Source: Anthopleura xanthogrammica (lineage: Eukaryota; Cnidaria; Anthozoa; Actiniaria; Actiniidae). From it: DNA of 64,000 bases. The stretch covers positions 759,501 to 823,500 of the forward strand of contig OZ025217.1 in the NCBI GenBank assembly GCA_964019055.1. The letters are read 5' to 3'. Position numbers and translations under genes: made by a program. Position 1 is the first letter of the stretch, and each line of letters starts with the position of its first letter. The notes beneath the pieces are model-generated. The model did not search any database. It was not told the DNA's origin and worked only from the letters and a program-made list of their open reading frames with translations. Positions 14 through 47,429 of the stretch are shown in pieces.

Positions 14-1322
14 AATTGGTTATCAAAACAGCGTTACCTGTTGGAATTGGACTAGCTGTTCTCAGCTATTGTGGAGAAAATGAGATAGCAAAGAAGGTTG
101 TTCTAGAAAAAGTGGTCTTGCCTCCACTGGTGAAACTGCTTGAAGTGATTGTAGGCTCGGTTTGTTTCGTGATTCAAACAAGCAGCCTGTCATCATTGAA
201 ACAGTTATGGATGAGCTACAAGGATGGTTCCTTGAAGGAGAAAGTCAAGAAAGTCATCAATGAGATTGACGAAGTAAAAAAACTGACCCAAGGAACAGAG
301 ATTGATGTGACAGTTGAGATTGATGAGGAGTACCGTGAAGCATGCTGGGTACTGTTGCTGTTAGAAAGTCAACAAGGTATGCCAGCTTGTCACATATATA
401 CAGCTATTTCAAAATTAAAGGTTGGTGAAGGTTTTTTTGAAAGGTATTATATTCCTATGTAAATAATATCAGCACAGAAGAAAATATGGTGGAAAAACCT
501 GCAGACAAATTTTGGGAAAATTTCCCATTGTTGTGACCTTTCGCTGCTTGCATTCATATCACAATAGTGCATTACGGGCTTAGTATGCAACGTGAAAGAA
601 AACCTTCGCCAACCTTTTTTTGAAATATCTGTATTCCTTTTGTTCGATCTGCGTGCATTTTGATCTGCTGAAATTATACAACTATTATTCATGTTTATCA
701 TCAATTCTGCTAAGCAAGGCTGTATTATCAGTAGTATACCTAGCCTTCACTTTATCTGATTATGAAACTATATTATGCACTCATTTGTATTACTAATCTG
801 GTCCATTAATCTCAGCTGAAGTTGAACAAGAGTCAAGTAAGAGTGTCCAAAGACCGCGTCGTCACTCGTTGTCATGTGAACGAGATTTTTTACCAAAGCA
901 TGACAAGAACCAATTATCTTGGCCAGAATGGACCGCTTTGAAGGAAGCAGAAAACAAACTGGCGAACGAGACCAGACGAAGAAAATATGTAGAAAAGCAA
1001 AATGAAAAGTCAAGGCAAAAGATGGAAGTGCTTAAAGGTGCTAAGGATACGACTAAATCAGAGAAAGAGGATGTAACAGTGACTCGCCAGGGTACTGATC
1101 CTTATAAATTAAGACTGAGCAAAGATCTCTGTCTGGGAAAAGAACTGACGAAAGTAACTCATTTTCTGGCATTTTGTTTTCACAGCTCGTTCTACGACAG
1201 TGGAAAAACGGCGTAGGCATTCGTCCCCACATGCTGACGAGACACAACTAAAAAAACCAACAAAGAAGCAGAGATTGTCAAAGAGTAAAGTCGGTGGCAG
1301 GAAAGGAAAGAAAAGAAACTGA
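14..1322 (+). CDS. Copy A: partial TRADD-N/coiled-coil paralog lacking the CHAT domain (5' end outside window)
   Basis: Three exons are supported: 14-376, 816-1091 and 1186-1322 (stop at 1320-1322), all joined by phase-1 introns with GT/AG ends. Exon 1 encodes a hydrophobic stretch, then a TRADD-N-like domain (GSVCF..., then QLWMSYKDGSLKEKVKK, then VTVEIDEE), matching copies B and C closely. Exon 2 starts like the coiled-coil exon of B and C (RPRRHSLSCERDFLP) but diverges after KDTTKS, near 1070. The reading then joins, in frame, a short very basic exon (EKRRRHSS ... KKPTKKQRLSKS ... GRKGKKRN). No TPR or CHAT domain follows, whereas B and C have about 600 more residues. One Glu of the EIDEEEY motif is missing. 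The gene is either a shortened adaptor with a nuclear-localisation-like tail or a decaying duplicate. The DED exon would lie left of the window. Confidence 0.6.
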
Positions 1323-2070
1323 GAGTTACATTTAGTAAGGAAGCAGCAGACGGAATTGAAGTTAGTAGGCCAAGCGCCATTTCAAGCGCTAGTTAGATCA
1401 CCGACAGCGCATACTTTCAATTTTGTACTTGCACTTGTAGTATTTATATTATATGTAATCTGTATGTACTGTAGATGTGTATCTTTATCAATTTTGTCCG
1501 ATCATAGAGTGAAAGATTGGGAAACACCTATAGAACATAGAAATTAGGCAAGTAGAGTGCAAACAATATATCCGTGAAATACAAATTACTAAATAGTGCT
1601 AATTTAACAATAGAAAACAATAGAATTTGCGAAAATTGTACTATTTTCGTACTATTTTGTTTCACGGATATATTGTTTGCACTCTACAATGACACTCTAG
1701 AAGCGTTCAACATGTGCTTAAGTATTGCTAAAACGATTGATGACAAGGTGATAGAAGCAAACGTTTATGGAAGCATAATATAGGCGTTTGGAAAAAAAGA
1801 AGCCGTGAACTGTCAACTGAAATAGAAGGAAAAACTTAAGGAAGAGTACTGGTATTTGCCCCAGGGCTTCTAATATAAGGACTTCTTAGAAGGAACATCT
1901 TCATCTTGATGCCAGGATTACCTTTAATAGCCGGGCTTTATTAGGTTCACAGTCAACTGCACAGTTAATATTTCAATATTCGCGGTGTGACTGTATTATA
2001 TACAGTGAATTATAAAGATTATAATGTGTTTACTATAAGACTAGAACATATTAAATAACTAGATCAATTA
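1323..2070. other. Region behind copy A with TPR remnant
   Basis: No complete gene is seen. Around 1690-1780 (+) a short reading (TLEAFNMCLSIAKTIDD ...) resembles one helix pair of the TPR repeats typical of CHAT-associated proteins. It is probably a relic of the lost C-terminal part of copy A or of another family member. Confidence 0.3.
1552..1687. repeat. Foldback element with 28-bp perfect inverted repeats
   Basis: The arm at 1552-1579 is the exact reverse complement of 1660-1687, with an 80-bp spacer whose inner flanks are also partly complementary. This suits a small MITE or foldback element next to the TPR remnant. Confidence 0.6.
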
Positions 2071-2137
2071 TCATGTTCCACCAAAGATGAATTCAAGCAC
2101 AGCCTGTACGTTGCCTCCAGTTGTTCTGAGAGCTCGT
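2071..2137 (-). pseudogene. Fragment of the UBL7 last exon (UBA domain end)
   Basis: The sequence matches the start of the true UBL7 terminal exon at 16632 with few substitutions, and homology ends sharply at 2137. On the minus strand it covers only the end of the UBA domain and the stop. It lies behind truncated copy A just as intact UBL7 lies behind copy C, which suggests a shared segmental duplication. Confidence 0.75.
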
Positions 2138-2541
2138 GTATAGTGTACGTCCGATTAAAGCACATTTAATTTCACAGGGTCATAGCAGGGGGAGGGGCCT
2201 GTGATAATAATACAATAATTTTTGATGTACTGTATATTGAACACTGAAAATTTTAGGTCTGTTACTAATACTTTTGACTTAGGGCCCCCCCCCCCCAATA
2301 TATTTGACCTTGCTACGGCCCTGTTTCATCACACCTTTTGACCGGTCTCCCCCCTCCCCCCAACTGCAATGTATTATGGGCAATGTGAAATTAGAGACTA
2401 TATGGGGATTTAGTTCCTCTCTGTCGACACCCTTTTTGCACCTTGTCAACTCTTTTCGCAAATAAAGTTATTATAAGTTCATTTCCATTTTTTACATATG
2501 CAATACAGAAAATGTGTACCAGTTTTAATCAAGTATATTAT

Positions 2542-2976
2542 CTAACAATGCACTATTTGTTTTCTACCCCTCCAATCAAAATAAAAACTATCAGTGTAGT
2601 GTTTTGCTATGTATTGATGACAGCTGACTTTAGGTTGTGGGAAAACCTTTCCTCTTATTTCATCTATTTCCATTCCCTCATTCTTGCATACCATTACTTT
2701 ATTCATCAGTTTCTTTAAGTCTTTAGCTGCTCTTGAATGTAATTTAGAGTCCTTGGTATTCAGAATGTAGTTATCAAAACCGCCAGCTTTATCTACGCAT
2801 CTCATTGCGTGTGTCGTAAAGTTGTAAGAAACAGTTTTCTCCAGTACTTCACTGTAGTACTTCTTGCGCTGGACATTTGGCTTCCAAGATCTTTTAGTTC
2901 TATAAGCATGATAGTCATAGAGATTAAAAATGTATCCCAAAATATCAGGCAATGCCGAGGGCGTAGGTTGTGAGAA
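2542..2976 (-). CDS. MRPL28: Mitochondrial ribosomal protein bL28m-like, C-terminal exon
   Basis: This single minus-strand exon has about 144 codons. Residues YRTKRSWKPNVQRKKYYSE, followed by TTHAMRCVDKAGGFDNYIL, are typical of the bL28 family as found in mitochondria (MRPL28, yeast Mrpl24), a component of the large mitoribosomal subunit. A plausible acceptor (TTTCCTATAG) precedes the open frame, and a stop codon lies just upstream in frame, so at least one 5' exon encoding the targeting peptide and N-terminus is expected at higher coordinates. I could not identify it. The frame is intact through the stop. With the missing 5' part and a repeat-filled flank, a partial or decaying copy cannot be excluded. 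Confidence 0.7.
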   Translation of the reverse strand, partial: FSQPTPSALPDILGYIFNLYDYHAYRTKRSWKPNVQRKKYYSEVLEKTVSYNFTTHAMRCVDKAGGFDNYILNTKDSKLHSRAAKDLKKLMNKVMVCKNEGMEIDEIRGKVFPQPKVSCHQYIAKHYTDSFYFDWRGRKQIVHC

Positions 2977-3140
2977 CTATAGGAAATTCCTTCCCAATGC
3001 CCCCCCTAAAAAATAGCATTTGCAACAACCTTGTGAAAGGATGAAATTTAAATTGATTAAGCTTTGGCTGTTGTATGTATCAGAGTGTGAGACACTCATA
3101 ACAAAGCTAGGATTGAATTTTTGAAAATTTGATTTTTAAG

Positions 3141-4549
3141 GTGGCTCAATATAGTTCTCCAGGCTTGAGGTACCTTTTTTGAAATCACGATTTCGCAGCT
3201 TAAGAATGCTTTGATTCCTTTGATACTTGTTCATGTCTGTAGTATAGGCCCAAAGTTGTGTTTGGAAGTGGTTTCCTACCAACACATGTTTCCATAGTAA
3301 CAAAAACTGAATACCTTTGTTTTAAACATTGGTGTTTTTCTCAAAATCTAGTCATAAACTTTATAATGAAATTTTCAGGTTTTGGAGTACTGAAGTAGTG
3401 CAACATGTGGATGAAGTTTAAACACTTTTTATCAGACGGGTTTGTAGTAATTCAAGAATAATTTTTTTCCCAGTGGGGGTGGGGTACTAGGGACGGTTCA
3501 GTAGTAGGGAGGTGCAGCTGAGACCTACAAACCCTGACCCTGTTCCGGAGTAAACGCCTTAAAAATATACCTTGTTTCAGAGGAAGATTTTCACATACTT
3601 TGTAAAAAAAGATACCCTGTTCCAGAGAAGACTTTCACATACTTTGTAAATATACAAAAAAAAACCTGGTTCCAGAGTGTGATTTTATATACCCTGTTCC
3701 AGAGAAAAAAATGCTGAAAACCATACCCTGTTTGGTGGCACATACCCATATAGCAAATATAGGGGTTTTTTACCACATGATTTTGCTTACTCACAAAATT
3801 ATTGCTGATATTTTCAAGACATCACGAATCTCTTTCTATTTTTGGCAAAATTATAATAGATGAGAACACAAACTCAGCAATGTAGATAGTGATCCTCTAA
3901 GGGGTTTGCAATTTCAAGATATATTTTTTTTGAAAACAGTGTAAACAATGCACAACACAGCCAAAAAGCAAAAAAAGATTTTTGCATAAATCTGAATATT
4001 TCCAAAATGCTCTTATAGAATTTTATTTTAAAACACCAGCCGCTAAATCAATCATTTATCTTCACTGTCAAACAGTTTTTAGCCCTTCAGAATGATTCTG
4101 TCTGATGAGAAGGACGTGCGAAGATTCAGTTTTCATTCTTTGTCAACTTATGGAAGTTGTAGCCTTTTTTTCGATCTGTTTTGTTTCACAACTATTCAAA
4201 TGCATTCATTCATTAATCATGCACACTGTGATTCTCTGTCACACAAATCATTTACTTCTTTTTCCCTGCTTGTAGAATAATTAAAACATTTTACTTCTCT
4301 CATTTTGTGCATTTCTCGGCAAGCTTACATTTTCTCAACATGCCTGATACGTAAATGACTTGTGTGACAGGGAGCCTCAGTGGAGAGTATGCATAATTAA
4401 TATATGATAAATAGGAAACCACTACCAAACAAAACTTTGGGCCTATACTACAAACTTGACCAAGTATCAAAGGAATTGAAGCATTCTTAAGCTGCAAGAT
4501 TGTGATTTCAAAAGCAGTACCTCAAGCCTGGAGAAACTATATCGAGCAA
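3141..4549. mobile_element. 1.4-kb non-autonomous element with about 140-bp terminal inverted repeats
   Basis: Sequence 3141-3283 (…CTCCAGGCTTGAGGTAC…TAGTATAGGCCCAAAGTT…) recurs inverted at 4412-4549 with scattered differences. No coding capacity is seen between the arms. The interior holds degenerate tandem copies of a motif containing ATACCCTGTTCCAGAG (about 3560-3735). This is best read as a long-TIR, non-autonomous DNA transposon. Confidence 0.7.
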
Positions 4550-5988
4550 GGTACCTGAAGGAGGGAGGAAACTGGAGAACCAACAAACAACTCTACTCAC
4601 ATACAACACTGTACCAGTGGGACTAACAATTTTAATCCACCCATCCCTGCTCTACAGCTCCCTCCAACAATCAAGACTCTGATCTAAAAACCCAGATGTT
4701 GTTAAAGGAGCATGATGTCTGGTCATGCAGGGGGAGGGGTGGGCAAATGGAAAAATTTGAAGCCTGGCTGGAACCTTTACAAACACATATCAATCTATTG
4801 AATGTACTTCACATTAATGCATTGTTTTAGCCTTTATGATGAATAAAGTGTTATTTATTAGTCATAATGTTAGGCTGACTCACTTTTTCCCAGAGAACGT
4901 TTCCACGTGACCCATCATAATGCCTTTTCCTGCATAAATACCCGTATGTGCACGTTTAGGTATGGCTTTCTGTAAGATAAACCGAAGCCCCAGCTGAACC
5001 ATCTCTCTTGTAGTCTGTTCACTCTCTTTTAACTATAAATCAATAATTCTATGGCTCAGAAATCGTTAATCTTGTGTTTATCAAAATCTTCCTCGGAAAT
5101 CAAGATGGCGGATATTTGTAATACGCATGCCTAATACTAATTACCGCTGTGTAGGATCACCTGCAGGCGCTTGCAAGAGTTATTGCGCATGTCTTTTACT
5201 CGATCCGCTATCCATGAATAATCATTTTGTTTTATTTATATTTAATTTTGGCGCGAACTTCGATCACAAGAAATATTAATCTACAAAGTGAAAATTTGAG
5301 GCAAAAATTCTTCATTCTTAGTGAATATTATCAAACCAGGAACGTTATATGGAAAATAAGGTTGTCTGCTGCGCGAAGGTCTGCGAGGTAAGTGAGCAAA
5401 CGAGGTGGTTTTGTTTAGTTGAATATACACTTTTTTCTGAATTTTATTCAGACGGTTCGACTGTAAATCAACAGTCTTCATCAATTGTTTTAGGGGACGG
5501 ATCATTTGATATTTGATTGGGGGGTGGTTGATTTTTTTTGGGGGGGGGGGGGGGGGGTGGGCCAATTCTAAGTTTGCTCGATGTTTTTTTCCGCCCTCAA
5601 GTGTTGCATGATATTTTTTTACTATTTCGGTCCAGTAGCGTAGTCGCGGAGCCGGTCAGCAACAGTGTTTTTTCAAATGACTGTATGCTATCATGCTACG
5701 AATGCAACCAAAAGAATTGGAATTCACTGTATCTAATCCCCCCCCCCCCCCAGGGCGATACTGAAATAAGGACCGGTCCCTAACTAGATACCTAGATAGG
5801 TAAAAGTAGGTAACAATATTTTTTGCCAGCAGAAGAAGTTAGTCGACGGGCACTAATGCGAGATTTTATGCTCTTGGGCTTTCTGTGTTGCAGGTTATTG
5901 GAAGAGACATACATATGATAATGACTTCCGCCTTCCTTGCTTGAAAGCTCTTGGACTGTTTACATGTTCACAGCAAAAAGTATCTAAG
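4550..5988. other. Intergenic stretch upstream of copy B
   Basis: No gene is supported here. A poly-G run at about 5538-5557 and a shorter poly-C run near 5740 produce spurious short open frames on both strands. The promoter and any 5' UTR exon of copy B are expected in the right half of this interval. A possible acceptor, ttgcag, ends at about 5893. Confidence 0.3.
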
Positions 5989-8900
5989 ATGGAAAACCAT
6001 CGAATAGTTTTGTTTAATATCCTTAGGAAAAGAACTAAAGACATTCTTCAAAGTTTACAAGATAGTAACAACAACCTGATTAGGGAAGTAAGGGAATTAT
6101 TTGAGGGAATTCCTGGTATTATCGATGAAGAACTTGCACGTATCGAGACGGTCGACCATCTTTGGGAGTTTTTAGTAACGAAAGAAATTATCAGTAAGGA
6201 CAAAGTGCAAATGTTGAAGAATGTTGCTAGGTTTGTTAAGTCAAACGAGTTGAAAAAAGAAGTAGAAAGCTATGAGTACGAGAGATCTGGTAAGTTACAA
6301 CTGACAGAGAACTCGACTATTAAACTACTCAAACGAAATGTTGGTTTACGTTGGTTTTATGTGGTTTACGACAAATCATTTATCGTAACTCAGTCGTGAA
6401 ATTATCACACTATTAAAGAAAAACATAACACAAACTATATCGTTTGTACCATAATGATACCATTTATGAAGATATATGATCCTGTATGATAGTTTGTTGA
6501 CTATAATTTTTTAAATTTTGTTTCAGGTATGGTTCAGAAAGTAGGTTTAGGTGAGAAGATATCCTTGTGATTTTGCTTTATTAACACTCTGTTGGGTTGA
6601 GGGAGATGTTTAGTTTTTCTGAATCCCCTCCATCTTTGAAATAAAAACGAAAGGAATACTTTTGGGTCAGAAATTATGAGCAAAGTACAGACCTTTACAG
6701 GGTATTTTTGTCTACTGTTTTGTCTACTAGGTCTGCGTGACCTAGATGATTGCGTGACTGCTAGACCACAAGCACTGTTAAGGTGCGGACACACGGTGCA
6801 ACATTGCGCGTAATATTGCAGGCAATGGTGCTGAAGTAGGATCGTTTTCTACTTCAGCACCATTGCGTGCAACAAATTGTGTCATGTGACATGGCTCGCA
6901 ACATCGATTGCCTGCAAAATTGTGTGCAATGTTACACCGTGTGTCCGTCGCTTTATATAAGGTTTTCCAGCAAATGCTGAAACTAAACAAAATTTCTAGT
7001 GAATTGATGAAAATAATTTTTTACAACTTTGCCCCAGAGTAGAGTTTTTGTATGACTTGGCAGTGACGCTCTGTCACAGCACGAAAAGTTGAAACAGTCA
7101 CAGCGCGCCATATCACTACTTATCCACTGAATCGGAATGCTTCACAGTGATACGAAATCTGGGCATGAATCTTTAATTGTCAAAATTCATAACTCATGCA
7201 TAATTTTCTTTTTTCTTTTTTTTTCTGACAGGAATTGCAAAAACTGCAAGTAAGACAATAAGTATTTTTAACGTATACTTCATCCTCGCGCCTTGCATGC
7301 CTTACCGGGTCTGAGTAATATAAATAGTGAAGTTGGGGTTGTGAGATTTAATGGCAAAATTCCTAAAAAAAATGGCAAGAATCTCAACTAGGTCCCCAAT
7401 GTTTTTCACCAGTATCCCCCTCCCCTCTCTAATAAATTATGAACAGTATGAGTGGAACTCTGGTCATAGTGAGTATGGAAGTAAAAATGAAAATAATCTA
7501 TGTCACATAGAGTCACATATAAGTTATTCGTCTCAGTCCATTTCTATCTCTATTCATCTTCAGAACTGGTTATCAAAACAGGATTACCTCTAGGAATTGG
7601 ACTAGCTGTTCTCAGCTTCTGTGGCGAAAATGAGATAGCAAAGCAGGTTGTTCTAGAAAAACTTGTCTTGCCTCCACTGGTGAAACTGGATGAAGTGTGC
7701 GAAGGCTCGGTTTGCTTCGTGATTCAAACAAGCAGCCTTTCATCATTGAAACAGTTATGGACGAGCTACAACGACGGTTCCTTGAAGGAGAAATTGAAGA
7801 AAGTTATCAATGAGATTGACGAAGTAAGAAAACTGACCCAAGGAACAGAGATTGATGTGACAGTTGAGATTGATGAGGAGGAGTATCGTGAAGCATGCTG
7901 GGTACTGGTGCTCGCAGAAATTGAACAAGGTATATATGCTACCTTATCATATATCATATCTAAACAAGGTTGATTACCAAGACCCAGGACTTAGCTTTCT
8001 ATTTATCAAATGATGCAGGGGCGGATCCAGGATTTTGTTCGAATTCAGGGAGGGGTGTGGCACACAAAGTCAACCCAGGGAGGGGTGCACCCCTGGATCC
8101 ACCCCTGTTATGAATACATTATATATTTGTATTAATCTTGTTCTCAGCTGAAGTTGAACAAGAGTCAAGTAAGAGTTTCCAAAGACCGCGTCGTCACTCG
8201 TTGTCATGTGAACGAGAATTTTTACCTACACGTAGCAAAACACAGTTATCTTGGCAAGAATGGACAGCTTTGAAGGAAGCAGAAAAGAAACTGGCGAACG
8301 AGACCAGACGAAGAATTTACTTAGAGAAGCAAGTTGAAGAGTTAAGGCAAGAGATAGAAGTCCTTAAAGGCACAAAGGATACCACTAAATCAAAGAAAGA
8401 AGATGTAATAGCGCTTGAAGAAAAAAATCAAGAGCTTATGACTGAATTGGAAGCTCCCAAAACCACTGATCTAAAAAAAGTTGAAAAATTAAAAGAGGCC
8501 ATTGAGTGTAGAGAAGAGATACTTAAAAATGCTGTAGAGGCAAATGACCGAATTGAGGTGGGTGCTGCTTACACCCAAACTGGTGTATTGTACTATGCAT
8601 TAGGTACTTTATACAAAGAAACTTATGAAAAAGAAAATTGTGAAGATACTATGAAGAAAGCAGAAAGCTGCTTCAAAGAAGCTGCAGATTCCTGGGAAAA
8701 GTTGAATGCTCAACTAAACGACGAAGACGAGTTGAAGAGTGAGGTTAGTCGTTCCATGTTTATAACTTACAAGTTCCTGACAACAGTGCTGCTGGTAACA
8801 AAGCAGACAGAGGAAGCTCTCATCGTCTCTGACCGGACACGAGATCCTGGTTTGGTTGATACCATGATCAAGAAATTCCAAATGAACAAAAATGACATTT

Positions 8901-9997
8901 TAAATGAATCGATGAGATATGCAAATGTTTCTTCCATTTTAGAAAATAAGAGTTTCTCTGTCCTAATATTTTCTGTCAGAGATGCCAACATAAACATATG
9001 GATTTTAGAATGTCAAAAACCGTCTTTTTTTCTCACAACGATGGTCCCTAATGAATCAGGAAAGAAAATATCAGTGGATACTTATATCACCAATCTGGTT
9101 GCTGCAGCTAATGCATCATCTGATGGTGAACCACTTGAACGACTGTATGAACTATTGATAGCTCCCGTCCTACCAAATCTCACCCAAGATGAGGTTGTCA
9201 TAATTGCTGATGGGCCTCTTCAATTGGTACCATTTGCAGCTCTTCGAAATCCCAAAACAGGACAATTTTTGTCCGATACAAAAAGCATCAGGTATGCCCC
9301 GTCTCTAACAGCAATGAAGATCTGGAAAGAATGTCCAGTGGATTACCATGGAAACACAGGAGCACTAGTTGTTGGTGATCCTGATGTTGGAAGGGTAATG
9401 GTTGCAGGTGAAGAGTGTGAATCCACTAGTTTACCGTATGCACTAAGAGAGGCCAAGGTTGTAGGCGCCATACTAAATGCAAGTCCATTGGTAGGAACTC
9501 AAGCAACTAAGCACGAAGTACTAAAAATGCTTCAGGAACACCTTGCTGTTATTCATATTGCTGCTATGGGAAACGAAAAAGGTGAAATCCTTCTTGCTCC
9601 ATCTGCTTCAACAAGAGAAGTTATTCCAGAAGAGCATGACTACATGTTGACTATCGAGGAAGTACAAGAAATGCGCATTCATGCCCAACTGGTTATACTG
9701 AGTATGCCATGGGGTGGAGGTAGTAGATTCCATAGTGAGATAACAATGGGAAAAGTTGATAGTATGAGTCAAGCCTTTCTTGCTGCAGGAGCTCGTGCTG
9801 TTGTCGCGTCCTTGTGGGCCATTGACGATGAAGTTACTTTGAGTTTCATGGTAAGCTTTTACACCTTTCTAAAGATGGGAGAAAGTGCAAGTAAAAGCCT
9901 GCAGTATGCCATGAATGACATAAGAGGAGAATACGAAGAACCAAAGTACTGGGCTCCTTTCTTCCTTATTGGCGATGATGTCACCATCAGTGTATGA
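5989..9997 (+). CDS. Copy B: DED-like / TRADD-N / coiled-coil-TPR / inactive CHAT protein
   Basis: Exons: 5989-6289, 6527-6550, 7232-7249, 7564-7929 and 8148-9997; 852 residues. All introns are phase 1. Residues 1-100 form a DED-like death fold (MENHRIVLFNIL ... IETVDHLWEFL ... ELKKEVESYE), aligning with the helix pattern of FADD/caspase-8 DEDs. Two micro-exons add 14 residues. Residues 115-236 hold a hydrophobic segment and a TRADD-N-like domain (QLWTSYNDGSLKEKLKK). Next come a charged coiled coil (SWQEWTALKEAEKKLANE), TPR-like helices, and a CHAT domain from about residue 545 (APVLPNLTQDEVVIIADGPL ... AFLAAGARAVVASLWAIDD). CHAT proteases need His in an xHG motif and Cys in LSAC; here they read AAMG (Met710, codon 9566-9568) and LSMP (Pro757, codon 9707-9709), so no proteolysis is expected. 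The likely role is a cytosolic death/immune signalling scaffold. Confidence 0.82.
6786..6947. mobile_element. MITE-like inverted repeat in copy B intron 2
   Basis: Ends CGGACACACGGTG and CACCGTGTGTCCG are inverted. A second internal hairpin (about 6822-6866) is centred on an ACTTCAGCACCATTGC arm. No coding capacity. Confidence 0.6.
8016..8107. mobile_element. hAT-like MITE (CAGGGGCGGATCCAGG ends)
   Basis: It is bounded by CAGGGGCGGATCC and GGATCCACCCCTG. It lies in the last intron of copy B and is absent from the otherwise alignable intron of copy C, so it inserted after the two genes separated. The same end sequence recurs at about 10527-10690, 47233-47429 and 54317-54514. Confidence 0.65.
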
Positions 9998-10020
9998 GAA
10001 ATAAGAAAGAACTGAGATTA

Positions 10021-10230
10021 TACAGTGAACCCGCAAAGTACTGGGCTCCTTTCTTCCTTATCGGTGATGATGATGTCACCATCAATGTATAAGAAATGAG
10101 AGAGAACCAAGATTACAGTGAACCAAAGTACTGGACTCCTTTCTTTCTTATTGGTTGATGATGTCACCATCAGTGTATGAGAAATGAGAGAGAACCAAGA
10201 TTACAGTGAACGAAAGTACTGGACTCTTTT
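10021..10230 (+). repeat. Degenerate tandem copies of the CHAT 3' coding end
   Basis: Behind the copy B stop codon, the block CAAAGTACTGG(G/A)CTCCTTTC ... GATGTCACCATCA recurs about three times with indels. It mirrors the more regular 87-bp array behind copy C. The copies are non-coding as they stand. Confidence 0.7.
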
Positions 10231-10526
10231 CTTATATTGGTGGTAATGACTCCAAGGAGATGAGAACCAAAATATAAATAAGGGAGAGTCGTTGGTAATT
10301 CCTTTCAATCTAGAGGGTTGGTTGTAATTTGTTTCTGTGATATTTCATGTAGATTCCACTGGCTCCCGGCCCTTATATATAAAATATATGCTATTACTAT
10401 GTATACTACCAAAGGATTTGGAATCCACTGTCATCCTTAACCACCAGGTTTTGTAGTGGGAGTTCTACACACTTTAATAGCGATAGGAATAGCCCAGGGT
10501 TCCAGCTAGAGGAGCCAAGAGGGCTG

Positions 10527-10690
10527 CAAGGGCGGATCCAGGGGAGGGGTGCAGGGGGTGCGCACCCCTCTCACAGCAACTTTGTCCCCCTATTTTGATG
10601 TTTTCTTTTTCTGATTCTGAGGGTTGCACCCCCCCGGGCTAACTTTGTGCCCTGCACCCCTCCCTGAACAAAATCCTGGATCCGCCCCTG
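10527..10690. mobile_element. hAT-like MITE between copies B and C
   Basis: Inverted ends GGGCGGATCCAGG and CCTGGATCCGCCCCTG enclose a C/G-rich interior. It belongs to the same family as the element in copy B's last intron. Confidence 0.6.
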
Positions 10691-10912
10691 CGGGCCTCTG
10701 TATTCCAGGGTATGATTGTAACTGAGTTACACACTGCCAGTGTCTCATTTTATTTTGAAGAAGATTGTATGTACTAGCTAGGAACAGTAGAAAGGGAACA
10801 AGTTTAAAGTTTATTAAGAAATACTTGAATGGCAATGTACATTGAAAAACTCAAACTTACATGTAAAGAAGATAATTAAGTCACTTTCCTAACATATACC
10901 ATATGTACAATG

Positions 10913-10918
10913 AATAAA
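10913..10918 (+). terminator. Candidate poly(A) signal for copy B
   Basis: AATAAA about 0.9 kb after the copy B stop, in AT-rich sequence. It is the best candidate I see before copy C starts. Confidence 0.3.
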
Positions 10919-11294
10919 TATGATCTTATGAATCTAAAATACATTGAGAAAGATCGTCCCAGTTCTTTTAAAATAGCATTTAAAAGGTAGAAAGCTGTCT
11001 TGGAAACGTTTAGTACGACATTTTAGCAGCGGTATTGCCCTAGGGCGCCTCAGGTTGAACTTGCATTCAGAATGAGGATGCAAGATGTCATGTATGCGGT
11101 TTGAACTGTCCAAAACAAGATAACGAGATTTTATGGCAGCAAAAGTAGTCTTTAGTCAACGGACACTAATACAAGTTTGGTAGATTATAGATTTTATGCC
11201 CTTGGGCTTCCTGTGTTCTAGGTTCTTGGAAGAGTTTGCATACATATGGTAATGACTTCCGCCATCGATATCATTGATTGAAGAAATAGCAAGT

Positions 11295-14200
11295 ATGGAA
11301 AAAAATCGAATAGTTTTGTTTAATATCCTTAAGATAAGAACTAAATGCATTCTTCAAAAATTACACGGTAGTAACAACAACTTGATCATTGAAGTAAGGG
11401 AATTACTTGAGGGAATTTCTGGTATTAGCGATGAAGATCTTGAATCTATCGAGACGGTCGAACATCTTTGGAAGTTTTTAGTAAGGAAAAAAGTTATCAG
11501 TAAGGACGAAGTGCAAGTGTTGGAGCATGTTGCTGAATTTCTTGAGTCTAGAGAGTTGGAAAAAGAAGTCAAAGATTATAAAAACAAGAATTCCGGTAAG
11601 TTCCAAAGGACAGAACTGAGCTTATTGTTCCGCTTACCTCAGACTGACTAACTTTGCGCTGACAAATTATTATAACCGAGAAATAATCTATCTTTGCTTT
11701 GAAACTGAGACAGAAACACTACTAGCTGTAACTTTATTTAGTTAGGTTAGAGACCATTCATTATTTATCGGGCGAAGGTGGGGGGTGGGGGATGGGGGGG
11801 GGGGGGGGGGGCATGTACCATACCACAGGGTTATGTTATTTATCATGATATATAATGGCTGGTTGACTATGATTATTTGAATTTTGTTCCAGTTGCAGTT
11901 CAGAAAGCAGGCCATTTAGGTGAGGAGATATTCTTACAATTTTGCTTTACTAATATTCTGATGACTGGGAAAATGTTTATATTTTAATTCCCTCCATCTT
12001 CGAAAAAAACCTCAAATTGATCCACATTCAAAAATTTTGTTGTAATTATGCTATATCATTTTTTTTGACAGAAACATGCTTGCAAGCTGTCAAAGGTGAG
12101 GATTTTTAAGTCCCTGTTACACATTGAAACTTTTAGCTGAAACTTGTGTGCAACAGCGTTGCAATACAAGTGTCGCGGGGGTGTTACGTCACAGTATGCA
12201 ATTATGTCTTTAAACTTGTTCACTGCACAAGTTTCAGTTGCACAAGTAAAAAGTGGTTCTACTTTTAAAACTCGCAAAGGGCTTCATGAAGCAAACTTGT
12301 TCAAAGCACTTCTACTTTGAAACTCCCAATCAAAGTTTCATAAAGCTCGGGTGTTACAGGGTTCAATAGACCTTTTTAGCTTCGTATGTAAATTGCCCAT
12401 TTCAGACCACATGACATTCCCTTGAGAAATGTTCTTTTGTTAAAATATTTACACTTGAAAGAATCAACTCCCAAGAGTGGCATCACATGGTCTGAAATGG
12501 GCACAACAAACAACGAAGCTAAAAAGGTCTATTCATTCTGAAACTTGTCAATGCACACAAGTTTCAGCTAAAAGTTTCAACGTGTAACAGCTAGGGCCTT
12601 TATTTTCTTATGTAACACAGAGGGCACAATTACTGAATTCTGATTGGATCCTGTCATGTTAATATATTATATGTTATGACTCTCATATCATTTTAATGTC
12701 TAAATCAGGTAATGGATGTGGGTTAGGGGTAGCCAGACTTTGGTTAGAACCTTGGGAATATGACAGCATGCAGTGGTTTTCATACGAATTAACATATATA
12801 ACATTAGCTCTCTAGTTTAGAGAAAATCATCAGCCATAAAGTGCAGTGTAAAATTATGGAATGATTTGACTCTGATATCAAAACTTTGAAAATATCAATC
12901 GAAAGTTTTTAATTATTGGAACAATTTGGAATCCCAATTGATTTTGCTAATCCTCAATTTGATTTTTATACAGGAGGAGCAATGGAAGCAGGTATGTTTG
13001 ATTATTTCATTAAATGCATTTTGTGTCATTTCATCCTATTCCATTCAACTATGACATCCCTGATTGCATGACATGTCACATGTGCGACAGTTGAAAAGTG
13101 AGGTCCCGTATGCAAGAGAGTAAGAGAAGAGTTATGGTTCTGTGTTCTTACTGATTGAAAATACTTTATTAAAGCTTGTTACAAACTCCAACCACTTCTA
13201 TTTCTATACCTATTCCATCTTTCTTCTTTTCTGTTCTAATGTATTTATGATAGTAAAAGTTAATATTATTTTTACCATTTTTCAGTGATAATATTGAAAA
13301 CAGTTTTTAAAACTGCAGCACAAACAGCAGCAATAACTGGAACAGTTGCTGCCATTATGAAGTTGTTCCATAACAATCCAGAAGCTTTACAAACCTTGTT
13401 TCACGACATATTACCATATGGGATGGATTTGATTGGACTTAAGAAGGGTTCCTTGTACTTTGTGCTTGAAACAAGCAGCCTGTCATCAATGAAACAGTTA
13501 TGGATAAGCTACAAGGATGGTTTCTTGAAAGAAAAAGTCAAAAAAGTCATCAATGAGATCGATGAAGTAAGAAAACTGACCGAAGGAACAGAGATTGGAG
13601 TGACAGTTGAGATTGATGAGGAGGAGTACCGCAAAGCATGCTGGGTACTGGTGCTGGCAGAAATTGAACAAGGTATGGCATTGCCACCTTATCATATATC
13701 ATATTATGATAAACAAGGCTGTATTACAAATAGTAGTCCAAGAGCTAGCTTTCTATTTATATTACTATGAATACATTATATATTTGTATTAATCTTGTTC
13801 TCAGCTGAAGTTGAACAAGAGTCAAGTAAGAGTGTCCAAAGACCGCGTCGTCACTCATTGTCATGTGAACGAGATTTTTTACCAAAGCGTGACAAGAACC
13901 AATTATCTTGGCCAGAATGGAAAGCTTTGAAGGAAGCAGAAAACAAACTGGCGAACGAGACCAGACGAAGAAAATATGTAGAAAAGCAAGTTGAAGAGTC
14001 AAGGGAAGAGATGGAAGTGCTTAATGGCACAAAGGATACCACTAAATCAAAGAAAGAAGATGTAATAGCACTTGAAGAAAAAAATCAAGAGCTTATGACT
14101 GAATTGGAAGCTCCCAAAACCACTGATCTAAAGAAAATTGAAAAATTAAAGAAGGACATTGAGAATAGTGAAGAGATACTTAAAACTGCTGTGGAGGCGA

Positions 14201-15726
14201 ATGACCAAAATAGGGTGGGTGCTGCTTACTCCAAAACTGGTGAATTGTACTGCACATTAGGTACTTTACACAAAGAAACAAATGAAAAAGAAAATTATGA
14301 AGATACTATGAAGAAAGCAGAAAGCTGCTTCAGAGAAGCTGCAGATTCCTGGGAAAAGTTGAATGCCCAATTAAACAAGGAAGACAAGTTGAAGACAGAA
14401 GTTAATCACTCCTTGTTGAAAACCTATGAGTTTCTGACAACAGTGCTGATAGATGCAAAGAAGACAGAGGAAGCTCTTAATGTCTCTGACCAGACACGAG
14501 ATCCTGGTTTGGTTGATACCATGATCAAGAAATTCCAAATAAACAAAAATGAAATTTCAAGTGAATCGATGAGATGTGCAAATGTTTCTTCCATCTTAAA
14601 AAATAAGAGTTTCTCTGTCCTAATATTTTCTGTCAGAGATGCCAACATAAACATATGGATTTTAGAATGTCAAAAACCACCTTTTTTTATCACAACGAAG
14701 GTCCCTAATGAGTTAGAAAAGAAAATATCAGTCGATACTTATATCACCAATCTGGTTGCTGCAGCTACTGTATCATCTGATGGTAAACCACTTGAACGAC
14801 TGTATGAACTATTGATAGCTCCCGTCCTACCAAATCTCACCCAAGATGAGGTCGTCATAATTGCTGATGGGCCTCTTCAATTGGTACCATTTGCAGCTCT
14901 TCGAAATCCCAAAACAGAACAATTTTTGTCCGATACAAAAAGCATCAGGTATGCCCCGTCTCTAACAGCAATGAAGATCTGGAAAGAATGTCCAGTGGAT
15001 TATCATGGAAACACAGGAGCTTTAATTGTTGGTGATCCTGCAGTTGGAAGGGTAATGATTGCAGGTGAAGAGCGTGAATTCGATAGTTTACCGTATGCAC
15101 GTGTGGAGGCCAAGGTCGTAGGTACTATACTAAATGCAAGTCCATTGGTAGGACCTCAAGCAACAAAACATGAACTATTGAATAGGCTTCACGAGTACCC
15201 GGCTGTCATTCATATTGCTGCTATAGCAAACCAAAAAGGTGAGATCCTTCTGGCTCCATCTGCAAGAGAAGTGAAGCCAGAGATCAATTTGGCTCTATCT
15301 ACATTAAGAAGAAAGGTTATTCCAGAAGAGAATGAATACCTGTTGTCTATCGAGGAAGTACAAGAAATGTGTATTTGCGCTCAACTGGTCGTACTGAGTT
15401 TTAGTGGTAGTGGCAGTGGGGAGATAACAATGGGAAAAGTTAAGAGTATGAGTCGAGCCTTTCTTGCTGCAGGAGCTCGTGCTGTTGTAGCATCTCTGTG
15501 GCCCATTGATAAAAATGCTACCCGAAGCTTCATGGTAAGCTTTTACACCCATCTGGAGAAAGGAGAAAATGCTAGTAAAAGCCTACAGAATGCCACGTCT
15601 GATATGAGAGAAGAAGGTTTTGATGAACCAAAGAACTGGGCTCCTTTCTTTCTTATTGGTGATGATGTCACCATCAGTGTACCAGAAATGAGAGAGAACC
15701 AAGATTACAGTGAACCAAAGTACTAG
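11295..15726 (+). CDS. Copy C: DED-like / TRADD-N / coiled-coil-TPR / inactive CHAT protein
   Basis: Exons: 11295-11595, 11893-11919, 12072-12095, 12974-12991, 13286-13672 and 13805-15726; 892 residues, all introns phase 1. The domain order is as in copy B: DED-like 1-100 (MEKNRIVLFNIL ... IETVEHLWKFL ... ELEKEVKDYK), three micro-exons of 27, 24 and 18 nt, TRADD-N exon (residues 124-252), coiled coil and TPR-like helices, CHAT. The first 50 residues of the TRADD-N exon differ completely from A and B: an Ala/Thr-rich hydrophobic segment (AAQTAAITGTVAAIM) replaces the LPLGIGLAVLS type. From GSLYFVLETSSLSS onward the copies agree again. The catalytic positions of CHAT read AAIA (Ile726, codon 15223-15225) and LSFS (Ser786, codon 15403-15405), so activity is unlikely. 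The C-terminus is extended because the first 87-bp repeat junction is read through (VPEMRENQDYSEPKY). Confidence 0.82.
12112..12595. mobile_element. MITE with a second MITE nested inside (copy C intron)
   Basis: The outer ends CCCTGTTACACATTGAAAC and GTTTCAACGTGTAACAG are inverted over about 40 bp. The nested element, at about 12365-12534, has ends ATAGACCTTTTTAGCTTCG and CGAAGCTAAAAAGGTCTAT. A related fragment of the nested element (TTTCAGACCACGTG) lies near 44480. Confidence 0.65.
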
Positions 15727-16059
15727 GCTCCTTTCTTTCTTAATGGTGATGATGTCACCATCAGTGTATGAGAAATGAGAGAGAACCAAGATTACAGTGA
15801 ACCAAAGTACTCGGCTCCTTTCTTTCTTAATGGTGATGATGTCACCATCAGTGTACCAGAAATGAGAGAGAACCAAGATTACAGTGAACCAAAGTACTAG
15901 GCTCCTTTCTTTCTTAATGGTGATGATGTCACCATCAGTGTATGAGAAATGAGAGAGAACCAAGATTACAGTGAACCAAAGTACTGGACTCCTTTCTTAT
16001 TGGTGATGATAATGTATGAGGAATGAGAGAGAACCAAGATTAGTGTGAACCAAAGTACT
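15625..16059 (+). repeat. 87-bp minisatellite made from the CHAT C-terminal coding end
   Basis: GAACCAAAG starts at 15625, 15712, 15799, 15886 and 15973, exactly 87 bp (29 codons) apart. The first unit is the true 3' end of the copy C coding region; later units run past the TAG at 15724. Units 1 and 3 share GTGTACCAG, units 2 and 4 share GTGTATGAG, suggesting a later 174-bp doubling. The antisense open frame across the array is an artefact of the period being a multiple of three. Confidence 0.9.
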
Positions 16060-24000: not shown

Positions 24001-27000
24001 TTTTAGCTTTTCATGTAACAGACTGGTTCCTTTTGCATGTGAGTCTGAGAAGAGAGAGAAATTCATGGTAAGAAAGATCAAAATGATGATGATGCATGGT
24101 AATGATGATGATGTCATGCATGGTAATGATGATGTTGATGCATGGTAATGATGATGATGATGCATGGTAATGATGATGTTGATGCATGGTAATGATGATG
24201 ATGCATGGTAATGATGATGATGCATGGTAATGATGATGATGCATGGTAATGATGCATGGTGATGATGATGATGATGCATGGTAATGATGATGATGCATGG
24301 TAATGATGATGATGCATGGTAATGATGCATGGTGATGATGATGATGATGCATGGTGATGATGATGATGATGCATGGTAATGATGATGATGATGCATGGTA
24401 ATGATGATGTTGATGCATGGTAATGATGATGATGCATGGTAATGATGATGCATGGTAATGATGATGATGCATGGTAATGATGCATGGTGATGATGATGAT
24501 GATGCATGGTAATGATGATGATGCATGGTAATGATGATGATGCATGGTAATGATGATGATGCATGGTAATGATGCATGGTGATGATGATGATGATGCATG
24601 GTAATGATGATGATGATGCATGGTAATGATGCATGGTGATGATGATGATGATGCATGGTAATGATGCATGGTGATGATGATGATGATGCATGGTAATGAT
24701 GCATGGTGATGATGATGATGATGCATGGTAATGATGTTGTTGGTGCATGGTAATGATGATGATGATGCATGGTAATGATGCATGGTAATGATGATGATGT
24801 CATGCATGGTAAAGATGATGATGATGCATGGTAATGATGATGATGATGCATGGTAATGATGTTGTTGGTGCATGGTAATGATGATGATGCTGTTAATACA
24901 TGGTGAATAATGGAGATGATGACAATGATAATGGTGATGAAAATGTTGGATGATGATAATGGTGTTGCTGATAAGATAAATTGATTATGATGGTGATGCA
25001 AGGCAATGTCAGTAATGATGTTGATGCATGATGAAATAATAAAGATAATAATATTAAAGACATTCTTAGAAAGGGTGATAATGTTAATGATGTTGATGAG
25101 AAGGAGGATGATTCACTGGATATTATGATGAAGTTAGTAGTGATGATGATGGTAATGGTGATGTAATAGGGTCAATAGTATTAGTGGTAGATGATTATGA
25201 TGATAGTTTTTTGATAATTCCAAGTCTGCAATGAATTCCATTTTCATGTTACTAGAAAGAAGCTATGGAATTAGATTCTCAGAGATTTGAGGAAGCTATG
25301 ACCAATGCAGAGGACTTGGTCAGAAGAAAAGGTACCTTGATAATGCATGTCCCATTTCTATTTTGTTGACATTAAAATTCCAAACACTGAATCTTTGACT
25401 GTTGTGTTTCCAACCAGCCCTGGGTATTAAAGTGGAGAATGAAGAGGAGGAAGAAGGTATCTAACCGTGTTCATAATAGTATATTTACATTTGCTAAGAA
25501 CATGTATTTCCTGCTGTTTTACTGCTCTGTCCGTTAATTGATGAATGAACTTAAGGCCCTGTTACGTGTTGAATTTTGCCAACGGTTGCATAAGTAGAAA
25601 GCATCTATCGACCCATCCATCCATCTATTTGTTTATTCATCCATCCATCCATTTGTCCATCCATCCATCCATATATTCATTCAATCCTTTCATCTGGTAA
25701 TCCATGTATCTATCCATTCATCAATCTATTAATCCGTTTCTTTATACATTCACTCATGCATTTTTCAGTTTGTGAGGCCGTTGATACTGATGATGTCAAA
25801 GACAATAGTAGTGAAGTCAAAGTGGACACGTCGAGTGTTACTGAAGACAAACCTGAGAAAGAAACTAATGTCAGAAGATCAAGCCGCAGTGTTAGGTAAG
25901 TATCAACAACTGTCTTGAGACACACATACACAACGAATGATAATCCTGTCACATCACACCTTATTTTGGCCATCATTGAATTCATTAGTCAAAACCTGAG
26001 TGTATAAATTTCATTTGTTTTTATCTGAAATAATCTTTGAATTTTATTGGTTTACAGAAGACCATCGAAATACAAAGATATCCTGACATACATCAGAGAA
26101 GCAAAGGTTTGTGCTTGTTACTTCAAAGGAAAACAAAATAGACAAAATTTTCAAAGACAGGTTCTCATGGAATGTCATGGAAACGCCTTGATTGACATCC
26201 GCCAAAACCTATTGATGACAATTCTGCATGTGCTATTAAGAATGACTTGAGTGAAATAGCATTGATAATGATGAGTCTACAGGGAACTTAACTGAAGAAA
26301 GATATATTATTGTGTTTTAACAGCCCTTCCTGAAAGAAATATTTGAAGAGAAGAAAGCATGTGTAAGGCATCAAATATTCAAGAAGGGTTCAGCAAAAGA
26401 AAAGAACTCTTTGAAACGTCGTTCAGGGTTTGGTCCTGTTGCTGAAACTGACCTGGTAAGTTATCACAATGCCAATTTTTTCCATTTCTAATCGCATATA
26501 ACTTCACTGTACGCTGTACCTCTTGTTCTCACTCACCTGTCCCAGTTACCAGTTGCACATTGTGCAAGCCTTGGTAAAACTATTCCAGTCTGTGAGAACT
26601 TTAAGCTTTTTTTTTTTTTGTACAATAGTAATCTCAATTTATTGCTTGCTTGGTAATTAGCTTCTGAAACTCATTCATCTTACACGAGGAGAAAATAAAG
26701 GCAATCAGTCGCTACCAAGGGTTTGGAAATCTCATCGTTAATAGCATTAAATTTGGTTTGGTCAATTCTTCCTTTGATTTTTCTGCAACGAAAATATCGG
26801 TCAGGTTCGCGTTTCTCAGTGTTTAAAACATCGTACTTTGGTCTGAGGTATCTACTAAAATAAGTGTAGTGTCGAATGAAATTGTTTCCGTGACAAATGT
26901 TTTTTTTTTTTTAAATGAAATGACAAATCAACAAACCAACTTTTTCCCGCCATTTTCGACAGGAAAATGACATCATGGAGCTGCTGCAGGATTATTACAG

Positions 27001-28621: not shown

Positions 28622-34632
<6,011 letters not shown>

Positions 34633-35378: not shown

Positions 35379-38069
35379 CTATCCCGACCCTAAATAATCG
35401 GCTGAACCATACCCGGATGTGCTCGGCACATGTTCAAAGTCAGACGCCAAGTTCCAGTCGTTCAAAGGATCATCTAAATATTCCTCTGGCTCTTCAATCT
35501 CCATCAGCTTCTCACTCGTTTTTCTCCTAAAATATTTCACATAAGATATCTCATTTCTTTTCATATTTTCACATTTTCTTTTCAGTGTTTCTGGTATATC
35601 ATCCCGTAAGGAATACCCTTTGACGTAAACCCCTGTGTATGCTTCGTCTAAAAAGCTTCCATCCTCTAAGCATGTTCGAGATATTCTTGCATTAAGGCGT
35701 CGAAAAATATTTAGTTCTCTATAGAAAGCGCTTCCCTGTGATTTTATTTTCCTCCAGAGTGTTGCGTTGAAGTACTGGTAGAGAAGAGAATCCGCTCGAT
35801 TCCAACTTTTAATATCATGCTTGACGGCTTCGTCAAGATTGTCTCTCTTTTGTTTGTCCTGTCGTTCGTTCAACTTGAAGTACAAAATATCTTCAAACGA
35901 CCAACACATTATCTGCTTCAAGAGAATCAAAGACTCGTCAAAATGCTCCATAATCATGACCAAGTTAAACTCGTTATCCAGGAAATGGAGGTAGTTCTCT
36001 ATAGCAGATTGGTTCTGGAAGTACCTGAAGTCGAGGCCCAGATCGAACATCATAGGATTGCGCAACAGATGTAGGGCAAGTGTCTTTTTCATGTGAGGAT
36101 GGCTATCTCTGAATGATGGAGGGTACTTCAGGAACGTTCCTAGCGGATCCTTCTCGTCGTTAAATCCTAAGGGATTTGCGAAATGCATGAAGTTGAAAAC
36201 TGACTCGTATTGTTTGATGGGATCCCTTAGGATCGTGATGTATTTGGATTTGCTCTTTGGGAATAACCAATGCATGGGCTTCCTGTTGTATCTGGCGTGG
36301 TTACACAGTATGTTAGCGTCCATTTTGTACAGCGGTGCTGTGTACGTAACCCTGAATCTAGTCGGCCATAAGAATGTGAAAAGATGCCTCTGTTTGGGCA
36401 GTACAAACGTTAGGTTCCACTTATCGCCGTATCTGTTAAGGATATTAGTGATTGTACTTCCTCCTGTTTTGTGAGTCTTCAGAAACAACACGTGATCAAC
36501 TCTACGACATTTTTGTTTCTTCTTTCTTTTCGCATTTTTTCGCTTTTCTCTGGTTTTAGGATTTTTGAGGGTTTTTATTTTATCAGGTAGAAGTGTTTGT
36601 GTATTTGTTTGTTCTTGAGAAGGAGCTTGTTTTGCTGTTTGTTTTGCTGTTTGTTTTGCTGTTTGTTTTGCTGGTAGTTCCCGTGTTGATATTGTATCCC
36701 GTGAATGCCTACAAAACAGTTAGTATGGCTGGGTTAATTATCATGTTATATAGAAACGAAGTTGGCGAAGATAGTTATGATAATATTTATAGTATAATGA
36801 TGATGATTAATTATGATGATGGTGATAATGATAATGACAGGTGATAGTCAGGTGATGATGCTCATGAGGATGCATGGTGATGATGATGATGGTGGTGATG
36901 ATGATGATGGTGATGATGATGGTGGTCATGATCATGATGATCGTGATGATGATGGTGATGATTTTGATGATGGTGATTGTGATGATGATGATGGTGATGA
37001 TGATTGTGATGGTGACTGTGATGATGATGATGATGTTTGTGATGGTGATGATGGTGACTGTGATGATGATGATGGTGACTGTGATGATGATGATGGTGAT
37101 TGTGATGGTGATCATGATGATGATGGTGATGATAATGATGGCGTGATGATGGTGACTGTGATGATGATGATGATGATGGTGATCATGATGGTGGTAGTCA
37201 ACGGAGCTGGGCAAAATTTAGTTAAATACCATGGTTTGATGGCTAAGATCGCTTCAATGCATAGATAGTTTATATCAACAGTTACTGAGCATCTCCTATC
37301 GTGAATATAAATCCCGATCTTCTATATCGTCAAATAATTCCTAGATTCCCGACATTTTAGGTTCGTCGCTCCATGCATAGTCATAGAACACCGAGTTCTT
37401 CCCACTGATGTCTAAAAGTTTTATTGTGATTAATGCCATATCGATCTTGACAAGAAACAATTCATTGCGTTCAAATTGTTTTCTCATCAAACACGTGTAC
37501 CATACTGATATGATTTCAGTAAGATGATTACCCAAATCTCAATATAATGAGGAAATTCTAGAATCAAAGCCAGGTCATTTAATTCAACAGCAATAGAATA
37601 TTTTGGATCTTGTGTAATTGCTGAAATTGTGCCATGGCGGATTGTAGACTAAAAGGGACACCCGGCAATCATATTGGTCTGTTCTGTTTTATGAAGTAAT
37701 TCTAGATGTGAAGTCTGTCGACCCCATGGCATGTCTGCCTCGCTAGAAGCCAGAAACGTTCAAGAACAACTGACACAGAACTCTGTATTAAGTTCTTAGA
37801 TTTGTAGTACATTTTTTTTCACATATTAGCCAAGGAAGGCTGCTTGTTTTAGGGGCATTCAATATTGAACCATAAGAATCGTCAACGCTGAAATTACAGG
37901 AATAACTCAGCGAAGTTATTACCATTTTATAATAGTGCGTCTGCATGACTTACCGTTGTTGTTCAAAACAATTCCTTAGCGATCTTTCTCTAGTGTAGTT
38001 AACACTACAGTACAAAATAACCGCTCCGCAAATCAAGAAGATGAAGATCGATCTTAAATGGATAAACAT
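35379..38069 (-). CDS. Galactose-3-O-sulfotransferase-like, type II Golgi enzyme (paralog 1)
   Basis: Two exons, 37954-38069 and 35379-36708, joined in phase 2; 481 residues. Exon 1 gives a short cytosolic tail and signal anchor (SIFIFLICGAVILYCSV). Exon 2 has a textbook branch point and acceptor (TACTAAC ... TTTTGTAG). A basic/Gln-rich stem with tandem AKQT repeats comes next, then the catalytic domain: the 5'-phosphosulfate loop FLKTHKTGGST, CNHARYNRKPM, and the 3'-phosphate loop region KYITILRDPIKQYESVF, all diagnostic of the Gal-3-O-sulfotransferase family (PAPS-dependent sulfation of galactose on glycolipids or glycans in the Golgi). The sugar acceptor cannot be predicted. The C-terminal 30-40 residues are acidic and unique to this copy. 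Confidence 0.88.
36805..37200. repeat. (GATGAT/GATGGT)n microsatellite
   Basis: About 400 bp of ATG-type trinucleotide repeat in the intron of sulfotransferase paralog 1. The long His/Ile or Met/Asp open frames here are artefacts. Confidence 0.95.
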
Positions 38070-47232: not shown

Positions 47233-47429
47233 CAGTGGCGGATCCAGGGGTGGTTCCGAGGGCTCCATGGAACCCCCCTTCGTGAGATCTCGTGAAGCCA
47301 ATCATGTTCTTTACGCTCAGTAGAATGAAATTAGAACCCCCTCCCCCCTTTTTAAGTCGATTGTAACAGCTTTTTCTGCGTGACGGCCATTTTGGAACCC
47401 CCCTTTTTAAAATCCTGGATCCGCCACTG
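47233..47429. mobile_element. hAT-like MITE, unit 1 copy
   Basis: Ends CAGTGGCGGATCCAGG and CCTGGATCCGCCACTG with CAAAG directly flanking both sides. It is also present in unit 2, so it predates the duplication. Confidence 0.7.

Follow-up and report, generated by a model that had tools for sequence, protein, structure and literature searches.

Tandem sea anemone genes predicted to join DED-like and TRADD-N domains to CHAT domains that lack the catalytic dyad

Two neighbouring genes in a 64,000-nucleotide stretch of the genome of the sea anemone Anthopleura xanthogrammica (hereafter, the window) carry, in this order, a DED-like domain, a TRADD-N domain, a coil/TPR region, and a CHAT domain. 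In both of them the CHAT domain has lost both residues of its catalytic His/Cys dyad, and coding constraint is visible between the two copies. We see about an even chance that these genes, here called copies 2 and 3, code for proteins of the form DED-like - TRADD-N - coil/TPR - CHAT, in which the CHAT domain is a retained pseudoprotease that regulates death-fold assemblies; the regulatory role is one that we infer by analogy.

Architecture of the locus

Copies 2 (5989-9997) and 3 (11295-15726) are arranged head to tail on the + strand. The segments predicted for them are as follows.

5989..6289, +: copy 2 exon 1, DED-like, with an ATG start and a phase-1 end at GTAAGT (sub-threshold Pfam DED match, E 1.6e-5)
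6527..6550, +: copy 2 possible micro-exon of 24 nt in the DED/TRADD-N linker (AG/GT flanks, in frame; copy 3 has a comparable stretch)
7232..7249, +: copy 2 possible micro-exon of 18 nt (AG/GT flanks, in frame)
7564..7929, +: copy 2 exon with TRADD-N, symmetric phase 1 (32.7 bits for TRADD-like_N against a cut-off of 23.7)
8148..9997, +: copy 2 last exon with coil, degenerate TPR, and pseudo-CHAT (exon residues 328-610; CHAT E 7.1e-45)
9938..10233, +: 88-bp minisatellite, 3.3 copies, built from the terminal part of the copy 2 CHAT coding sequence
11295..11595, +: copy 3 exon 1, DED-like (sub-threshold Pfam DED match, E 1.4e-4; 65% identity to copy 2)
11893..11919, +: copy 3 possible micro-exon of 27 nt (in frame in silico)
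12072..12095, +: copy 3 possible micro-exon of 24 nt (in frame in silico)
12974..12991, +: copy 3 possible micro-exon of 18 nt (in frame in silico)
13286..13672, +: copy 3 TRADD-N exon, the first ~40 aligned codons strongly divergent (TRADD-like_N E 0.0057, below cut-off)
13805..15726, +: copy 3 last exon with coil, degenerate TPR, and pseudo-CHAT (exon residues 328-620; CHAT E 3.4e-48; model pLDDT 85)
15624..15998, +: 87-bp minisatellite, 4.3 copies, built from the terminal part of the copy 3 CHAT coding sequence

Spliced in silico, both copies are open over 838-892 aa: copy 2 yields 838-852 aa and copy 3 yields 869-892 aa, with no inner stop in any of the 4 and 8 micro-exon choices, respectively. 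Every predicted junction is GT-AG and the phases are compatible throughout; for copy 2 as for copy 3, the first exon closes in phase 1, the middle exons are multiples of 3, and the final exon opens in phase 1 as well. For these two copies, the open proteins and fitting phases are compatible with the joined domain order proposed by an earlier, sequence-only reading of this DNA, and from them we infer that the exons are spliced together into one protein. The domain names that it gave (DED-like, TRADD-N, coil/TPR, and CHAT) also proved mostly right for copies 2 and 3, with the qualification that the DED score is below the cut-off.

For exon 1, DED (PF01335) is the top Pfam family in both copies, although its scores of 25.5 bits (copy 2) and 22.4 bits (copy 3) lie below the curated cut-off of 35.9. 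The DED profile score is likewise below the cut-off in P0091, a protein of Actinia tenebrosa; on such profile scores, "DED-like" is the safe wording. The AlphaFold model of P0091 is poor, its residues 1-80 (the DED region) being helical with a pLDDT of only 29-66, and sequence searches against solved structures with the DED and TRADD-N exons returned no meaningful match. The cut-off of TRADD-like_N (PF20694) is reached by copy 2 only; copies 1 and 3 score below it, yet their alignments to copy 2 reach 86% and 61%, respectively. TPR profiles in the last exon are also below their cut-offs (E 0.05-0.06), and the model of this region is helical. The TPR part is short and sub-threshold here, accompanied by the CHAT match and by homology to the TPR-CHAT protein P0002 of Actinostola that starts at exon residue 115.

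Upstream of these genes lies a further copy, represented by three segments.

14..376, +: copy 1 TRADD-N exon, the 5' side of the gene being off the window (TRADD-like_N E 7.4e-4, below cut-off; 86% identical to its copy 2 counterpart)
816..1091, +: copy 1 coil exon, 3' end uncertain (tblastn 80-89% identity over 815-1078, none further)
1186..1322, +: copy 1 possible last exon, a basic NLS-like tail that would replace TPR-CHAT (in-frame joins from several candidate donors, the donor being uncertain)

Over 88 residues, the coil exon of copy 1 is homologous to the start of the last exon in copies 2 and 3, and it diverges after that. Between 1078 and 8147, tblastn with five CHAT-bearing queries (E 1e-2) found no TPR or CHAT match, and any DED of copy 1 would fall outside the window. 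Three neighbouring paralogs with the full domain set had been proposed. This fits copies 2 and 3, and is rejected for copy 1 because the latter carries TRADD-N and part of the coil without CHAT.

The closest named protein matches are P0002 and P0091, both from sea anemones. P0091, whose record is marked partial, consists of DED, TRADD-N, and coil, without CHAT. Since P0091 and copy 1 lack CHAT and the homology to P0002 sets in only inside the exon, the ancestral gene was probably DED-TRADD-N-coil, and the TPR-CHAT segment probably joined later, inside the coil exon. Exon shuffling requires symmetric phase-1 exons, and phase-1 introns around the domain exons would make the C-terminal modules exchangeable; the CHAT-less copy 1 would be an adaptor-only form.

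The CHAT domain and its lost dyad

Both copies match the CHAT family (PF12770) far beyond its cut-off, at the E-values given above. The model of the copy 3 domain fold-matches Csx29 and separase, with modest Foldseek TM-scores for the CHAT-exon model (0.35-0.46 by query length, among the best 20 rows), and its pLDDT drops below 50 at 536-538, in the catalytic loop. Note that the model was built on an alignment of 30 relatives, most of them dyad-bearing, and is thus no proof that the dead domain folds.

To compare the catalytic positions, we aligned copies 2 and 3 with 130 fetched proteins, comprising 120 listed of 132 matches and 10 from the search with spliced copy 2; the broad protein searches scored only those candidates that shared most words with the query. 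P0091, which has no CHAT, was left out of the counts, and P0062, which has a gap at the Cys, was left out of the Cys count. The catalytic His is present in 129 of the 129 fetched relatives that span its position. The Cys is present in 126 of the 128 spanning both positions, the exceptions having Ser (P0023) and Arg (P0029), and none of these 128 lacks both residues. The corresponding codons of copies 2 and 3 are listed below.

9566..9568, +: copy 2 catalytic His position, ATG (Met)
9707..9709, +: copy 2 catalytic Cys position, CCA (Pro), in a loop without any Cys
15223..15225, +: copy 3 catalytic His position, ATA (Ile)
15403..15405, +: copy 3 catalytic Cys position, AGT (Ser)

In place of the His/Cys dyad of an active CHAT or caspase-clan protease, copy 2 thus has Met/Pro and copy 3 has Ile/Ser. 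The sequence-only reading had called this a caspase-clan CHAT domain; for copies 2 and 3 we reject that it works as an active effector protease, since both dyad residues are lost and the changes in conserved columns crowd the active site (see below). In the TPR-CHAT protein of Craspase, replacing the catalytic Cys by Ala or Ser abolishes activity (PMC9729208). A Ser protease is unlikely for copy 3 because its His is gone too. With both catalytic residues lost, the product is likely a regulator or decoy rather than an enzyme.

To describe the surroundings of the dyad, we used 111 CHAT columns that are >=90% conserved across 20 relatives. These relatives belong to the alignment of 30 proteins that we chose among the 120 listed, and they include P0023, which is itself without the catalytic Cys. 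The near-site set comprises 21 of these columns, in residues 470-478 and 525-551, and was chosen after viewing the alignment; near-site counts and local dN/dS were taken from a pairwise realignment of copies 2 and 3. Each copy is altered in 25 of the 111 columns. Near the dyad, 10 of 21 columns are altered in copy 3 and 13 of 21 in copy 2, and the columns altered in either copy number 14/21 near the site vs 18/90 elsewhere (hypergeometric p 6.6e-5, for a region picked post hoc). When each of the 20 relatives was left out in turn, only 0-3 of 19-20 near-site columns were altered in it. In addition, the catalytic loop of copy 2 contains a 4-residue insertion.

Nine near-site columns are altered in both copies, 3 with identical replacements and 6, the dyad included, with different ones. 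This mixture of shared and differing replacements suggests that decay of the catalytic loop probably began before or around the duplication and that change continued afterwards. A tree built from 32 CHAT domains unites the two copies (100/100, stem 0.31) and groups them with P0001-P0003 (94/98), which keep the dyad. Two of these three, P0001 and P0003, are metagenome proteins that may be incomplete, their contigs being 2200 and 1475 bases long.

Selection and alternative explanations

The open frames of the last exons, of 616 and 640 codons, align end to end in one frame. Between copies 2 and 3, this exon has a dN of 0.102 and a dS of 0.215; the values are 0.117 and 0.258 for CHAT alone, and 0.090 and 0.174 for the coil/TPR part. 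For neither part did dN exceed dS in any bootstrap (0 of up to 400). The pair contains 0 stops vs 7.8 expected when its 212 differences are placed at random, and only 0.1% of 2000 simulations were stop-free. Since dN is below dS and stops are absent, the pseudo-CHAT of copies 2 and 3 seems to be retained. The dN/dS ratio of ~0.45 is moderate, comes from one pair of copies, and is blurred by apparent gene conversion.

The sequence-only reading had described tandem copies with patchy divergence, and copies 2 and 3 fit this description. In the CHAT region, dS is 0.064 over residues 328-427 vs 0.457 over 428-620 without the near-site codons, an apparent sign of gene conversion, so that the dN/dS estimate would mix different histories. 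In the TRADD-N exon, saturation is reached over the initial 40 aligned codons (dN 0.90), and the remainder has a dN of 0.125 and a dS of 0.497; the start of the copy 3 TRADD-N may have been acquired from another paralog. For the DED exon, dN is 0.202 vs a dS of 0.155; diversifying selection is unsupported there, because the bootstrap interval of the difference spans zero.

These values bear on the possibility that the CHAT region is under relaxed selection, copies 2 and 3 being en route to pseudogenes and the dyad loss a symptom. A ratio that is not very low, the number of altered conserved columns in each copy together with the loop insertion, and a last exon running into an unstable minisatellite are all compatible with decay. 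However, the two long frames still align over their full length, the pair is stop-free with no bootstrap favouring dN, and the changes cluster at the active site rather than being spread evenly; we consider decay unlikely. A rather unlikely alternative makes the dyad-less CHAT a recognition or scaffold surface and the protein a sensor or adaptor: TPR and pseudo-CHAT would sense a ligand, and DED/TRADD-N would recruit a separate effector, activating cell death rather than damping it. The six near-site columns replaced differently in the two copies would suit a variable surface, as would the constant Death-like and TRADD-N part with variable flanks described in PMC8195603. Nevertheless, the 40 near-site codons have a dN (0.238) below their dS (0.385), with no sign of positive selection, and no ligand is known.

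It is also conceivable, but very improbable, that the DED/TRADD-N exons are transcribed separately from the TPR-CHAT exon, the fusion being an artefact of genomic reading. In this direction point P0001-P0003, in which neither DED nor TRADD-N is matched at E<=0.1 (with the possible incompleteness of P0001 and P0003 noted above), and the earliest in-frame Met of the last exon, residue 98 in copy 2 and residue 70 in copy 3, from which a shorter, TPR-CHAT-only product is possible. On the other hand, the CHAT exon opens with a coil segment that also trails TRADD-N in copy 1 and that P0091 of Actinia has fused to its TRADD-N, and the phases fit at all junctions in both copies.

Relation to known systems and proposed function

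According to the main text of Kaur et al. (2021, PMC8195603), TRADD-N proteins of the DEDD2 clade number 17-168 in cnidarians, most often preceded by a DED and with variable flanks, and TRADD-N of this clade also occurs fused to a TTC28-like TPR, in an animal that is not named. As predicted proteins, copies 2 and 3 would have in common with them the Death-like domain (usually DED) followed by TRADD-N, the variable flanks, and the cnidarian expansion. They differ in their dead CHAT, none being described in that main text, where the word CHAT has 0 occurrences. The earlier statement that the exact combination was not familiar as a described system holds in part: given the expansions and the TPR fusions of PMC8195603, the kind of fusion was nearly described already, and a CHAT pseudoprotease with DED and TRADD-N was not found in the paper listings and text passages searched. 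Searches on inactive CHAT, on DED with CHAT, and on TRADD-N with anemone returned no relevant paper.

We know of no established function for anthozoan TPR-CHAT genes. They number 276 and 304 in two Acropora and 15 in Nematostella (PMC12314368), and canonical TTC28 is TPR plus CHAT (PMC9145168). The TTC28-like proteins have TPR followed by one C-terminal CHAT (PMC12314368), which would resemble the layout predicted for copies 2 and 3 with their sub-threshold TPR part, whereas the dyad, kept in 126/128 of the fetched CHAT relatives, is lost in these copies. The closest TPR-CHAT proteins by tree, P0001-P0003, have no DED or TRADD-N, unlike copies 2 and 3, for which both are predicted. The TPR-CHAT protein Csx29 of Craspase and separase are active proteases with a His/Cys dyad (PMC9729208), which copies 2 and 3 do not have.

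The search with spliced copy 2 yielded 10 CHAT proteins, of which those named by organism are bacterial, and neither DED nor TRADD-N is listed for any of the 10. The DED/TRADD-N region had no match at E<=1 among 4857 candidates of the length range searched; only two cnidarians are named among the listed matches, so absence there means little. Among the proteins searched, neither an apparent orthologue of the whole architecture nor a putative active DED-CHAT partner was found.

c-FLIP consists of two DEDs and an inactive caspase (C14) domain, and tunes caspase-8. Like the predicted products of copies 2 and 3, it combines death-effector modules with a caspase-clan domain whose catalytic residues are missing. 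It differs from them in having a caspase rather than a CHAT/separase-type domain, two DEDs rather than one DED-like domain, and no TRADD-N or TPR, so that the likeness is an analogy in which the protease parts are not homologous. By definition copies 2 and 3 are not c-FLIP: their domain is CHAT, there is no C14 match up to E 1, and each has one DED-like exon. The c-FLIP-type combination of DED and inactive caspase is also described in PMC8195603, according to which DEDD2, the vertebrate DED and TRADD-N protein, interacts with cFLIP.

Under the pseudoprotease reading, the DED and TRADD-N head would bind like domains and thereby enter a death-effector platform. The pseudo-CHAT would then replace, compete with, cap, or bind competent TPR-CHAT (TTC28-like) proteases, or hold what they cleave, and would thereby restrict or adjust protease activity in the way that c-FLIP tunes caspase-8. 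A more specific version, which we offer tentatively and hold to be doubtful, is that sea anemones have a c-FLIP-like inhibitor on a CHAT (separase/Craspase) scaffold, evolved independently of caspases: a duplicated DED-TRADD-N-TPR-CHAT gene would have lost its dyad, been kept by selection, and come to restrain active DED- or TPR-CHAT-based death proteases.

If this is true, animal TPR-CHAT proteins would form an uncharacterised death-protease pathway with pseudoenzyme regulators of its own. A dead yet kept protease wired to DED-like and TRADD-N domains would tie the anthozoan TPR-CHAT genes to animal death-fold signalling, and the binding partner of the pseudo-CHAT would provide a testable handle. 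If the pseudo-CHAT does regulate an active CHAT protease, the FLIP principle of a dead protease on a death domain would have arisen more than once, on different scaffolds.

Other genes and simple arrays in the window

Four galactose-3-O-sulfotransferase genes, all of them apparently intronless, lie at the following positions:

35379-36719
45351-46436
47630-48829
54715-55914

Three were called by a Pfam test, and the fourth (54715-55914) was assigned by the likeness of its translation to that of the third, the two being almost the same. The fourth gene is contained in a 2.6 kb duplication (98%; 46635-49194 versus 53720-56280).

The remaining features are:

2542-2976, - strand: open frame matching Ribosomal_L28 (E = 9.8e-13)
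24083-25033 and 31476-31818: extended arrays of simple sequence (imperfect His/Ser-type repeats; five-base repeat)
59392-62234, - strand: sodium/calcium exchanger family matches in three open frames

The exchanger frames are probably exons of a single gene, and the long open frames within the simple arrays are spurious products of the arrays. The Ribosomal_L28 frame, perhaps mitochondrial L28 or a retrocopy, sits between copies 1 and 2 of the TRADD-N genes.

Shared motif and divergent ends of the TRADD-N copies

851-880 (copy 1), 8183-8212 (copy 2), 13840-13869 (copy 3): RPRRHSLSCE motif, in the segment after TRADD-N
9938-10233: minisatellite at the copy 2 gene end, unit 87-88 bp
15624-15998: minisatellite at the copy 3 gene end, unit 87-88 bp

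The motif, which we take to be a possible basophilic-kinase site, is identical in the three copies and also occurs in P0091, a partial Actinia tenebrosa protein. The units of both minisatellites consist of the final codons and stop region of the CHAT genes. Since the copy 3 frame stays open beyond the position of the copy 2 stop, copies 2 and 3 differ at the C-terminus.
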